A stretch of 54,170 nucleotides of DNA from a bacterium (GTDB taxonomy: Bacteria; Bacillota_I; Bacilli_A; Izemoplasmatales; UBA1188). The notes under the pieces are model-generated. The model did not search any database. It was not told the DNA's origin and saw only the letters and a list, made by a program, of their open reading frames with translations. How positions within the stretch are numbered: position 1 is the stretch's first letter; each line of letters begins with the position of its first letter. The stretch is from positions 1-54,170 of the forward strand of contig JAFXYB010000025.1 of assembly GCA_017541975.1 (NCBI GenBank). Direction: 5' to 3'. Shown here in pieces: positions 45,966-51,663 of the stretch. Position numbers and translations under genes: made by a program.

Positions 45966-46709
45966 TTACTTCTTAATTTTTCCAAGAGCGAGAAGTTTGA
46001 GAAGTTTTACTTCGTGTGGCTTTAAAGGCCTAAAAGTACCATTCGGAATATCTAAATAGAGATTTCCTATTCGTGTTCTTTTGAGAGATTTTACTTTATG
46101 GCCTACAGCCCCAAAGATATTTCTTACTTCTCGGTTTTTACCTTCTTTTATGATGATGTCAAGGATTGTGGATGTTTTTTCATCGTTATATTCAACATTT
46201 AGAATTCTTGCAGGTTTAGCCTTATATTCGGTTAGATCTATTCCTTTTTCGATTTTTTTAGATTCTTCTTTTCTGAGAAGACCTTCCACTTTTACGTGAT
46301 ATTCTTTTTCAATTTCAAAAGAAGGTTTTTCTAAGAGGGTTTTGAATTCAGAATCATTAGTCATAATAAGAAGACCTGATGTATCGTAATCAAGTCTTCC
46401 AACAGGATAGATTCTCTCCTCTACATGTTCCATAAGCGACATGACCGTTTTCCTTCCTTTATCATCTTTGGTTGTGGTGATATAGGCAGTTGGCTTATTT
46501 AACATGTAGTAGACTTTGTTTTCTTGTTTGGTGAGCTTTACACCATCTACTTCTACTTTATCTTTTTCAGTTACTTTTGTTCCAAGCTCCGTAACTACTT
46601 TTCCGTTAACTTTTACTTCTCCATTTATGATGAGCTTTTCGGCTTCTCTTCTTGAGACAAGACCGGATGCGCTTATATATTTTTGTAGTCTTTCTTCCAT
46701 ATTATACAA
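45966..46709 (-). CDS. rluB: RsuA/RluB-family pseudouridine synthase
   Basis: A 247-aa enzyme with an N-terminal S4 RNA-binding domain (EERLQKYISASGLVSRREAE) and a synthase domain with the catalytic Asp in YPVGRLDYDTSGLLIMTND near residue 105, ending with GKNREVRNIFGAVGHKV. The order S4 plus this motif points to RluB, which modifies 23S rRNA helix 80. Its start overlaps the stop of the methylase-like gene by 8 bases and no promoter is seen between, so the two are translationally coupled. Confidence 0.95.
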   Translation of the reverse strand: MYNMEERLQKYISASGLVSRREAEKLIINGEVKVNGKVVTELGTKVTEKDKVEVDGVKLTKQENKVYYMLNKPTAYITTTKDDKGRKTVMSLMEHVEERIYPVGRLDYDTSGLLIMTNDSEFKTLLEKPSFEIEKEYHVKVEGLLRKEESKKIEKGIDLTEYKAKPARILNVEYNDEKTSTILDIIIKEGKNREVRNIFGAVGHKVKSLKRTRIGNLYLDIPNGTFRPLKPHEVKLLKLLALGKIKK

Positions 46710-48387
46710 GGAGTGAAAGGAAGTTGTCTTTAAACTTCTTTTTAAAACCTTCCCTCATTTCTTTTTCAACTTCTTTAACTTCTTGAATGTTTTGGAGTTT
46801 AAATTTATAACTTGAAGCTATTGTTGATTGACGAGTGAATGTTGGGAGTGGAACTAAGAGGTTTTGGAGTTTCGTAGGGTTTAGGGAGAGGATGGAAGCG
46901 CCTGTCTGAATGCTTCTTAAAGCCTCATTACCATTTTTAGAATCTAGGAAAATCTTAAGATAGGTAGGATCGATTAATTCTTTATTTACTCTTATGACGA
47001 TTAGGGAACCAGTTGAGATATAGGTTTCGTTATAAGGGATGTTTATTACGGCAGTTTTAAAGGCTTTGCCTTTACAACTTATTACTAAATCTCCATCTTG
47101 AAGTTTATAGTGAGTCATTCTTCTATCGACAACTTTTAATGATTGGAGACTATCTTTCATTACATAACCATCTTCTATATCAGATAGAGTTAGTAGTTTT
47201 ATCTTTGTCTTTTCATCGCTGATGCATTCATCCAAAAGGTCAGATGGGATTTGGAATCCTCTGAAGATTGCCTCAGTCACATCTTTGAGTGGTGTTGGGT
47301 TAATGAAGTTTGTTTGAATTGATTCGACAAATCTATGTGGCGTGAAATCAAAGTCATGACTTTCGATGTATTCATAGTTCATGAGTGATACAGCACCTTC
47401 AATTTGTCCTGAAAGAGCTCTTATTATCTTTTCTGAATCAAAGTTTATACCACGTCTTATATTTTGGGCAAACTTTCTTGCATCAGAAATAGTGACATCT
47501 TTTTCTTTTGTCTCAGTGAGGACAGCCATTGAAAGAGGGAATGGAATGATTTGAAGTCTTGGTAGTTCGATAATTAGTTTTAGTTTTCCTTTTTCAACAA
47601 CTCGTTTTTTATAGTTGATGTCGGCTGTTTTATTTAGAATACCAGTTGAAACTAAGGTAATCATTATTCCTTTAGGTTTAAGATGCTTTAGGTATTTTTC
47701 AATGATTATATATTCGAATGAGACAGAACCATATTGTGATAGCTTTTCTCTTCTTCCGATTTCAGTTAGAATACCAGGATATTTATATGGTGGGAAATAT
47801 AAAATTGTGTCATATTCTTGAGCGGTTGGCATTTCTCTTGTCGTAGTGTTTATAAATCCGTGTGGAATATCTTTGATTCTAAAGAGGATTTCAGCTAGTA
47901 AGTTGATATCTGAGTTATAGAAATCATAGGTGATATGCGATACATTCATAGATCCATCATATAGGAATCTCTTCATGTTGAGTGAAGAAATGAAGACATT
48001 TCCTAAATCTTCTTTTAATAGATATTTATTGAGCTTTTCAACATCAACATCGATGATTTTATTATCTATCATGTAATCTTCGATGAGTTCAATTAAGAGT
48101 TCTTCTAATTCTTCTTCTGATAGTTTAAATAAATATGTGAAGGAATTCTCAAAGGCGTTATTGACGAAAGATTGAGGAATCTTATCTGTGAGATTCTTCA
48201 TGAATGTGTCTTTATTGGCAATGATAGATGATCTAGTTAGAAATTGAGCATATGAAAATTTAGACATATCTGGATAAACCTTTTTAAGGGCGTATATGTC
48301 ATAAATATAGAAAATTAGTATTATTTCTTCAGATTGTATTTCTCTTAAAAGATATGGATTCTCTTTTATTATTTTTTCTTTCATCAC
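46702..48387 (-). CDS. Type I-like N6-adenine methylase fused to a specificity (TRD) domain, catalytic motifs degenerate
   Basis: A 561-aa protein. Residues 1-120 resemble the helical HsdM N-domain and about 130-345 the methylase core (LNMKRFLYDGS..., GIMITLVSTGILNK, KLKLIIELP). The SAM-binding DPxxGSG motif I is missing and the catalytic (N/D/S)PP(Y/F) reads YFPPYKYPG near residue 197. Residues about 350-561 look like one HsdS target-recognition half: FRGFQIPSDLL, LQDGDLVISCKGKAFKTAV, QTGASILSLNPTKLQNLLVPLP and a coiled-coil end. No hsdR or second specificity gene is nearby. It is probably a DNA-binding protein without methylase activity; a role at the ribosome operon is unknown. Confidence 0.82.
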   Translation of the reverse strand: MMKEKIIKENPYLLREIQSEEIILIFYIYDIYALKKVYPDMSKFSYAQFLTRSSIIANKDTFMKNLTDKIPQSFVNNAFENSFTYLFKLSEEELEELLIELIEDYMIDNKIIDVDVEKLNKYLLKEDLGNVFISSLNMKRFLYDGSMNVSHITYDFYNSDINLLAEILFRIKDIPHGFINTTTREMPTAQEYDTILYFPPYKYPGILTEIGRREKLSQYGSVSFEYIIIEKYLKHLKPKGIMITLVSTGILNKTADINYKKRVVEKGKLKLIIELPRLQIIPFPLSMAVLTETKEKDVTISDARKFAQNIRRGINFDSEKIIRALSGQIEGAVSLMNYEYIESHDFDFTPHRFVESIQTNFINPTPLKDVTEAIFRGFQIPSDLLDECISDEKTKIKLLTLSDIEDGYVMKDSLQSLKVVDRRMTHYKLQDGDLVISCKGKAFKTAVINIPYNETYISTGSLIVIRVNKELIDPTYLKIFLDSKNGNEALRSIQTGASILSLNPTKLQNLLVPLPTFTRQSTIASSYKFKLQNIQEVKEVEKEMREGFKKKFKDNFLSLLV

Positions 48388-48418: not shown

Positions 48419-48447
48419 ATTCTACAATAAAAAGGATTATTTATCAA
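48419..48447 (-). promoter_or_regulatory. Promoter of the methylase-like/rluB operon
   Basis: On the minus strand TTGATA (48447-48442), a 17-base spacer and TAGAAT (48424-48419), about 31 bases before the ATG; the -35 directly abuts the epimerase stop codon. Confidence 0.65.
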
Positions 48448-50500: not shown

Positions 50501-50851
50501 TTATAATTCAACAATCGTGATACCTTGATTAAACCCGCCATAACAGTAGCTTAAATCTGGGTAGGTATTAATTAAGTATCTTGAATCAGGATCATACATT
50601 TCAAACTTTTCACCATAAACAACGAGTTTTATCTCTTTGTTTTTGAGTTTGTCTCTTAGATATGATCTTGTACGTCCTTTTAGAGTGCCACCAACACCGC
50701 TACTTCCGTATCCATGCACGATAACAAGGCATTTAACTTTACTCTTTTTGCCATTTCTAATTTCTATATCTAGGATTGATTTAGCTTCAATCCAAGTTGG
50801 TCTATTTTCTTCTAGTAGTATCTCTTTTACAATCATATGTATCTCCATCAT
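50501..50851 (-). CDS. Stand-alone Smr-domain protein
   Basis: A 116-aa protein. The core VKCLVIVHGYGSSGVGGTLK near residue 48 is the Smr HGxGxG nuclease/nucleic-acid-binding motif and is followed by RTRSYLRDK. The N-terminal LEENRPTWIEAKSILDIEI fits the first Smr strand and helix. Smr domains usually cap MutS2; short free forms bind or nick nucleic acids. The ATG overlaps the DUF5131 stop (ATGA), so they are coupled. Confidence 0.85.
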   Translation of the reverse strand: MMEIHMIVKEILLEENRPTWIEAKSILDIEIRNGKKSKVKCLVIVHGYGSSGVGGTLKGRTRSYLRDKLKNKEIKLVVYGEKFEMYDPDSRYLINTYPDLSYCYGGFNQGITIVEL

Positions 50852-51663
50852 TCTTCAATATCAAAATCAAATGATAATTGATTAGTATCTACTTTTGCTT
50901 TCCCAAATTTGATTCTTTTAGATCTTAGATAATCTATATTGGCTTTTTTAGCTTGAGAATGTTGAAATTTGCGTTGAATGTTATAATGCACTCCATCTTT
51001 AATGAATTTTTTACCGGTTTGGTGGAAAGAAAAATGAACGTTTTTTCTTTCACATTGATCTCTAAGTGATTTAATCCAATCAAAATTTAGTGGCCTTGCG
51101 TTTGGGCCAGATTCTCCTCCTGCAGTAACTTCTTCTATATCATCTCTTAAGTATTTTTCAATATCAATTTCTTCAAGCATAGGTTCAATAACTATCATTC
51201 TATGCTTCATTGGGATATTCATAAATATCGGTAGTCTTTCATCGGCTCTTTTTTGGTTTTCTACTGTCACCCCTATTTCTAGGTTATCATAACCATCGTT
51301 CCAATCTTCTGGAAGGAATTCTTTTAATCTTTCTGGTCTTTTGGTGAAGAATACGAAGAAGCAATCGCTTCTCTCCTTTATCATTTTGAAACATTCACTT
51401 CTCCATGGATCAGCATCTTTTATTAGAAAGTCAGACTGAAAACAGGTAAATATGACTTTACCTGATGGTATTTTATAATTTCTTTTTTTGTCTTTTTTGA
51501 TTGGTAGATCATATTGTAGGGTTCTTTTACAGATGGATGCTTCTCTTTCACGTCTTGCATCGCCTCTATATACATAGCAATTCAAACAACCTTCACTTTT
51601 TTTAGTGCATCCATGCCATGGGCTCCACTCATATGAACTTTTTTCTTTCTTTTTTGAATCCAT
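50848..51663 (-). CDS. DUF5131 (phage Gp37/Gp68-like) family protein with a three-Cys motif
   Basis: A 271-aa protein. The N-terminus YEWSPWHGCTKKSEGCLNCY, with spacing C-x6-C-x2-C, is the hallmark of the Gp37/Gp68-like family. The body has strands typical of a radical-SAM-like TIM barrel (FVFFTKRPERLKEFLP, NLEIGVTVENQKRADERL, MIVIEPMLEEIDI, VTAGGESGPNARPLNFDW). The biochemical function is not established; an iron-sulfur or zinc site at the three cysteines is an inference. It is often found on phages and mobile DNA. It lies between a GNAT gene and an Smr gene in one transcript. Confidence 0.88.
   Translation of the reverse strand: MDSKKKEKSSYEWSPWHGCTKKSEGCLNCYVYRGDARREREASICKRTLQYDLPIKKDKKRNYKIPSGKVIFTCFQSDFLIKDADPWRSECFKMIKERSDCFFVFFTKRPERLKEFLPEDWNDGYDNLEIGVTVENQKRADERLPIFMNIPMKHRMIVIEPMLEEIDIEKYLRDDIEEVTAGGESGPNARPLNFDWIKSLRDQCERKNVHFSFHQTGKKFIKDGVHYNIQRKFQHSQAKKANIDYLRSKRIKFGKAKVDTNQLSFDFDIEE

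Follow-up and report, generated by a model that had tools for sequence, protein, structure and literature searches.

A solitary HsdM~HsdS-like fusion without methylase motifs, kept beside rluB throughout one bacterial genus

Gene X and the domains of its product

The stretch of DNA analysed here, referred to as the window, is 54,170 nucleotides long and carries on its reverse strand a gene, designated X, that is directly followed by rluB. X and its parts are located as follows.

46702..48387 (-), gene X, an HsdM-like~HsdS-like fusion of 561 aa (open reading frame, profiles, fold and start alignment)
48013..48384 (-), N-terminal helical region, aa 2-125, in an HsdM_N-like position (predicted structure)
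47353..48012 (-), degenerate N6-methylase Rossmann-like domain, aa 126-345, motif I lost (model, PF02384, fold match)
47785..47796 (-), motif IV position, F198-P199-P200-Y201 (YFPPY; alignment)
46840..47295 (-), single target-recognition domain (TRD), aa 365-516 (profile matches)
46708..46833 (-), long C-terminal helix, aa 519-560, a candidate dimerisation helix (two low-confidence models)

Translation of X probably starts at the ATG at 48384, as a comparison of starts shows that its relatives begin at the second codon. The predicted model places helices at aa 2-123, with pLDDT values mostly between 64 and 91, and for aa 1-340, Foldseek against the PDB pairs the predicted fold with the HsdM crystal structures 3lkd and 3khk (E about 1e-10). 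A Pfam search with the X protein itself (P0001) gave no match in the N-terminal part; PF02384 (N6_Mtase) scores above cut-off in three orthologues, those of G001 (28.2 bits), G003 (26.4) and G002 (24.9), the seven genomes of the genus being numbered G000 (that of the window) to G006. The C-terminus of X is recognized by the PADLOC Specificity_I profile (3e-18, aa 360-551), and PF01420 exceeds its cut-off in two orthologues, from G001 and G006. PDB sequence matches of the C-terminus comprise EcoKI S and other S chains, and the best structural-sequence match is 8vsr (‘Esub1’). The best NCBIfam match is MAD5 (aa 331-543, 1.6e-14), at 53.6 bits against a curated cut-off of 400.

By profile matches, X carries one TRD and not a tandem pair, and its layout is that of a single-chain methylase with a TRD and a C-terminal helix, the helix being drawn from low-confidence models. 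The models of the recognition domain and helix have pLDDT values from below 50 to about 70, in a region where sequence homology is clear, and modelling the C-terminal half alone did not improve them. The order given in a preliminary description of the locus, an HsdM core followed by one HsdS-like half, is thus borne out by the profiles, the PF02384 scores of the orthologues and the HsdM fold match.

Conservation within the genus and pairing with rluB

X has been found in all seven genomes of the genus, with 40-80% identity (E <= 6e-122), and every copy is an open reading frame. A second collection returned the same six genomes besides that of the window, and close homologues of X nowhere else. 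The assemblies of the genus, among them Yak_Rumen, RUG448, UBA1188 and Reindeer, are of rumen or animal-associated origin; all are metagenome assemblies, some of them incomplete. In the tree, the genus copies form a single clade (support 100/100) on a stem of 1.6 changes per site.

The dN/dS ratios of X (Nei-Gojobori) are 0.072 for G000-G005, 0.111 for G000-G004 and 0.121 for G001-G003, the last being the only pair with unsaturated dS (0.58); for this pair, rluB gives 0.071 and cmk 0.087. The range of 0.07-0.12 answers the question of constraint raised in the preliminary description, indicating that X is under purifying selection, and together with the conservation in 7/7 genomes it rules out a recent lesion or pseudogene. 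When deep branches of the genus are compared, identity in the recognition domain is 62-69%, against 57-64% for rpsA and 66-68% for cmk; it falls to 33-49% in the methylase-like part of X and to about 20-30% in its first 130 aa. The TRD is also better kept than the methylase part in some sporadic relatives outside the genus (72% vs 59% for L087/L089, 63% vs 45% for L087/L091). On these identities, the stronger conservation of the TRD is partly a family trend, and not proof of one conserved target.

The junction with rluB and the region upstream of X contain the following features.

45966..46700 (-), rluB, starting 1 nt after the X stop (start aligned with relatives; adjacency kept in 7/7)
48419..48447 (-), promoter-like site TTGATA-17-TAGAAT upstream of X (consensus match only)
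46718..46740 (-), imperfect inverted repeat AAGAAGTT-N7-AACTTC at the 3' end of X before rluB (in 6/7 genomes)

X lies directly before rluB in each of the seven genomes, at a distance of -1 to +7 nt. The 8-base overlap of the two genes described earlier holds only if rluB starts at the TTG at 46709, and not with the aligned start, the ATG at 46700; as judged from the aligned starts, the tight X-rluB coupling is conserved, though the overlap itself is not. The placing of X upstream of cmk-rpsA also stands in part, as cmk follows in six of the seven genomes and alaS takes its place in G002. The conserved pair is X-rluB, which is kept even in G002, where cmk is elsewhere. The view of X as the first gene of a unit with rluB agrees with the tight spacing and with the promoter-like site directly upstream, which is the best such site of the region and is found before X in G005 as well. 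The inverted repeat before rluB has a fold z-score of -3.8 in G001 and weak scores in the other genomes; as a hairpin it was rejected despite its presence in 6/7 genomes, its covariation being no higher than that of shuffles.

Across the genus, X is neighboured by rluB/cmk and by an epimerase or other genes, with no cognate hsdM or hsdR. In sister families, a different gene precedes rluB, of a membrane/CBS type (UPF0053-like, by eye). Replacement of scpAB by X at this position was considered and rejected, given this membrane/CBS-type gene and no ScpA or ScpB over cut-off in the order. ScpB (PF04079) had no match over cut-off in 61 genomes of the order, and ScpA (PF02616) none in 21, most control genomes being positive, and the order may either do without ScpAB or possess very divergent forms.

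The RsuA-family signature GRLDxxTxGL is canonical in the rluB of the window and in the sister-family copies that were read. It is altered, with the Asp kept, in four genomes of the genus, where GELDPYERGL, NKLDFEDTGL and DYLDYDSEGL are found; RluB activity may be altered in this half of the genus, to judge by the signature. The four genes are listed here.

L028:7404-8144, rluB with altered signature (G001)
L027:7655-8356, rluB with altered signature (G002)
L029:1535-2266, rluB with altered signature (G003)
L030:7625-8338, rluB with altered signature (G006)

Other genes were recognized by eye. The window contains a small Smr-domain-like protein directly after a phage Gp37/Gp68-like (DUF5131-type) gene (50501-51663, (-)) and a 125-aa fragment of a DUF1016/YhcG-like nuclease gene (438-815, (-)), of which a longer copy of 462 aa lies upstream of X in G001 (L028:3737-5125).

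hsdR was detected in only two of the seven genus genomes, G000 and G006, and a strong HsdM besides X in the same two only. The remaining PF02384 matches of the genus, read from sequence, are X, methylases of the release-factor or tRNA type, and unrelated solitary methylases. The statement that no restriction gene stands beside X is true within the window; elsewhere in the genome, contig C20 carries a type I system. The presence of X in 7/7 genomes, the kept synteny, the purifying selection, the 100/100 clade and the restriction of type I R and M to 2/7 genomes support the earlier suggestion that X has been domesticated.

The parent family and the loss of motifs I and IV

A class-wide search covering about 390 genomes besides those of the genus identified full-length relatives of X in 17 of them, in a scattered distribution. 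These proteins form what is defined here as the pseudo-M~S family, on the basis of full-length homology and a non-canonical motif IV, both of which X displays. Most relatives stand first in a type I operon with the order fusion, often a partner of ~175 aa, hsdM, hsdS and hsdR (G010, G042, G067, G119, G134, G206, G208, G225, G376 and G069:C38), while hsdR comes first instead in the operons of G170 and G356. Pseudo-M~S genes also head plasmid type I operons in Lactococcus cremoris pJM2A (WP_081196204.1) and Salimicrobium pSJ25 (WP_008591562.1); a relative on the Paenibacillus plasmid pPC03 has no type I genes listed beside it. L078 and L079, found in two different families, are 95-96% identical, an identity from which recent transfer of some relatives is concluded. 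X differs from its operon-heading relatives in being solitary in 7/7 genomes.

The pseudo-M~S relatives are annotated only as ‘N-6 DNA methylase’, and no curated family describing X or the parent fusion was matched. No relatives of X were found in phages and viral contigs, and a search of the open-licence literature, which is weak evidence of absence, returned no paper that describes a catalytically dead HsdM~HsdS fusion or the domestication of an HsdS. A target shared between the fusion and the cognate HsdS of the parent operons was rejected, the BLAST similarity being just at fold level. Two further pseudo-M~S genes, L107 (G137) and L108 (G069:C83), also stand alone, with no type I genes beside them, and the G137 copy was dismissed as a second independently fixed one, as it is not conserved in its family or genus.

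In many operons, the gene for the conserved ~175-aa partner separates the pseudo-M~S gene from the type I genes, as at the following five loci.

L022:9475-9990, ~175-aa partner
L076:2711-3256, ~175-aa partner
L079:2721-3242, ~175-aa partner
L082:2250-2807, ~175-aa partner
L085:3015-3542, ~175-aa partner

Searches of Pfam, NCBIfam, PADLOC and the PDB gave no significant match for it, and it is absent from six of the seven genomes of the X genus. The single copy, in G001 (L096, G001:C73), precedes at a contig end an AIPR-like gene, recognized by eye, and not type I genes.

The absence of a DPxxGSG motif and the Phe in the catalytic slot, both reported in the preliminary description, have been confirmed: motif I is absent from X and motif IV reads FPPY. 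The alignment shows no SAM motif I (DPxxGSG/GxG) in any of the seven genus orthologues, and at motif IV, the genus variants FPPY, LPPY, VPY or APY begin with F, L, V or A, while P200 and Y201 are invariant. The loss is thus conserved in relatives, both motifs being missing in 7/7 genomes. Close homologues with intact motifs I and IV, which would mark the copy in the window as a recent lesion, were sought in the seven genus genomes and, for motif IV, among 29 family members, and none was found.

No aligned family member, near or far, has the canonical [NDS]PP[FYW] (0/29); the position reads, for example, HFPF, NYPF, YPPL, EVPF, SPPL, DPPA, FPPF, DAPF, NFPF or VPPF, while the HsdM proteins of the same operons, serving as positive controls, read NPPF. 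A GxG motif I (LCSGYG) is kept by many distant relatives and lost in the X clade. It is also missing in a separate clade, L087-L092, in which the gene downstream of L087, L089 and L092 is ADP-ribosylglycohydrolase-like (DraG-like) by eye. On this alignment, the methylase-motif lesion of X is not recent. As motif IV is non-canonical across the whole family, catalysis is judged to have been lost before domestication and to have been a trait of the parent family already, and the loss of motif I, by its distribution in the tree, came after domestication, on the stem of the genus. The lack of a canonical motif IV in all 29 members, the position at the head of operons and the NPPF of the adjacent HsdM together identify the parent, at the level of sequence and context, as a hitherto undescribed, non-catalytic M~S component accessory to type I systems.

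Proposed role of X and comparison with known systems

We consider it probable that X is a type I-derived protein, detached from its system and fixed in the genus, which acts as a non-methylating, dimeric, sequence-specific dsDNA-binding protein, with a role that is probably regulatory or architectural. Sequence, profiles and gene context show descent from the non-catalytic HsdM~HsdS fusions that normally head mobile type I operons. In the ancestor of the genus, one copy of such a fusion settled before rluB and lost its type I partners, subsequently becoming a vertically inherited housekeeping gene, as its distribution, synteny and selection show. Two copies of X may pair through their C-terminal helices, as in the homodimeric gamma-methylases and half-S subunits, which would bring their identical recognition domains onto an interrupted palindrome and let the dead methylase domains clamp the DNA. 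The output, the least certain step, would probably be the regulation of transcription or the local organization of the chromosome, with X produced in fixed proportion to RluB.

A reader kept and a writer lost point to sequence-specific DNA binding without methylation, which is the most likely property of X; this binding, its target and the part that X plays in the cell are all inferred. The Pro-Tyr pair of motif IV, which is invariant, could still accommodate a flipped base, in which case X may read methylation and not write it. Domesticated methylases usually retain activity. That X is instead an active, unusual methyltransferase, with a noncanonical motif IV and SAM bound without motif I, is very improbable. 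The retained fold and the invariant P200-Y201 would suit such an enzyme, but motif I GxG is missing from every orthologue, the catalytic N/D/S is replaced by F, L, V or A, and the canonical motif IV is missing family-wide and present in the neighbouring HsdM. The disappearance of both methylase motifs could also be read as the decay of a functionless restriction remnant, a reading that is virtually discounted by the open frame in all seven genomes, the dN/dS of 0.07-0.12 and retention with synteny.

The earlier suggestion of a DNA- or RNA-binding factor holds as to type I ancestry; as to the ligand, the case for DNA is much stronger than that for RNA, since the C-terminus has no detectable relatives other than dsDNA recognition domains. 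It is accordingly improbable that X has moved to RNA, acting with RluB on ribosomal RNA or ribosome assembly. Adjacency to rluB in 7/7 genomes, even where cmk lies elsewhere, is consistent with such a role, as is the changed rluB signature of G001, G002, G003 and G006, where both genes may have changed together; shared expression by itself, however, accounts for the adjacency. Somewhat less remote, but still unlikely, is a continuing part in defence, with X serving in trans as an extra specificity protein for type I M and R or binding phage DNA alone. Its relatives head type I operons, and the genomes of the window and G006 have a type I system elsewhere. Yet X is kept in the five genomes with no detectable type I R and HsdM, neither its location nor its recognition domain shows diversification, both being conserved, and its own methylase-like region would occupy the place of M. 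A non-methylating DNA-binding protein thus remains our preferred reading of X. In a broader and more tentative proposal, which we would hold with less confidence, the type I operons of Bacilli contain an unrecognised dead-methylase~TRD part, often with the ~175-aa partner, which in the genus of X escaped and was fixed as an rluB-coupled, sequence-specific chromosomal DNA binder. Its counterparts, by analogy, would be METTL14 and DNMT3L, which are dead methyltransferase cofactors.

X is of interest as a recognition protein that stems from restriction, has no catalysis left, and is retained by the genus in linkage with a gene for ribosome modification. If the preferred reading is true, X shows how parts of mobile defence systems can become resident DNA-binding proteins. 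The parent fusion may be a regulator or sensor of type I restriction that has so far escaped study. From automatic annotation one would expect a methylation that X and the proteins of the parent family very likely cannot perform. Half-S subunits and fused homodimeric methylases are each already known singly.

M.XmnI, M.DrdI and M.XcmI, in which a methylase is fused to one TRD and a C-terminal helix, act as homodimers on interrupted palindromes, and motif IV forms the catalytic slot that holds the flipped base (PMC3874165). X likewise combines, in one chain, a gamma methylase-like part, one TRD and a C-terminal helix, and would by this likeness have an interrupted palindrome as its target. Unlike these enzymes, it has neither motif I nor an N/D/S in motif IV nor a linked endonuclease, and its homodimer is proposed by analogy. 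The half-S forms EcoR124I HsdS delta-50 and NgoAV show that dimerisation allows a protein with just one TRD to read a palindrome (PMC3874165). The recognition domain of X is homologous to that of HsdS, including the half-S forms; unlike HsdS, it is fused to a methylase-like domain and has no cognate hsdM or hsdR at its locus. With the sporadic pseudo-M~S proteins, X shares architecture, full-length homology and the loss of motif IV. Those proteins, however, are mobile and accompanied by hsdM-hsdS-hsdR, and a GxG motif I is usually still present in them, whereas X is solitary, fixed and devoid of motif I. The MADS system, with its MAD5 S subunit and MAD2 methylase, resembles X in that MAD5 is the best NCBIfam match, but X scores below the MAD5 cut-off and its locus has no MADS genes.
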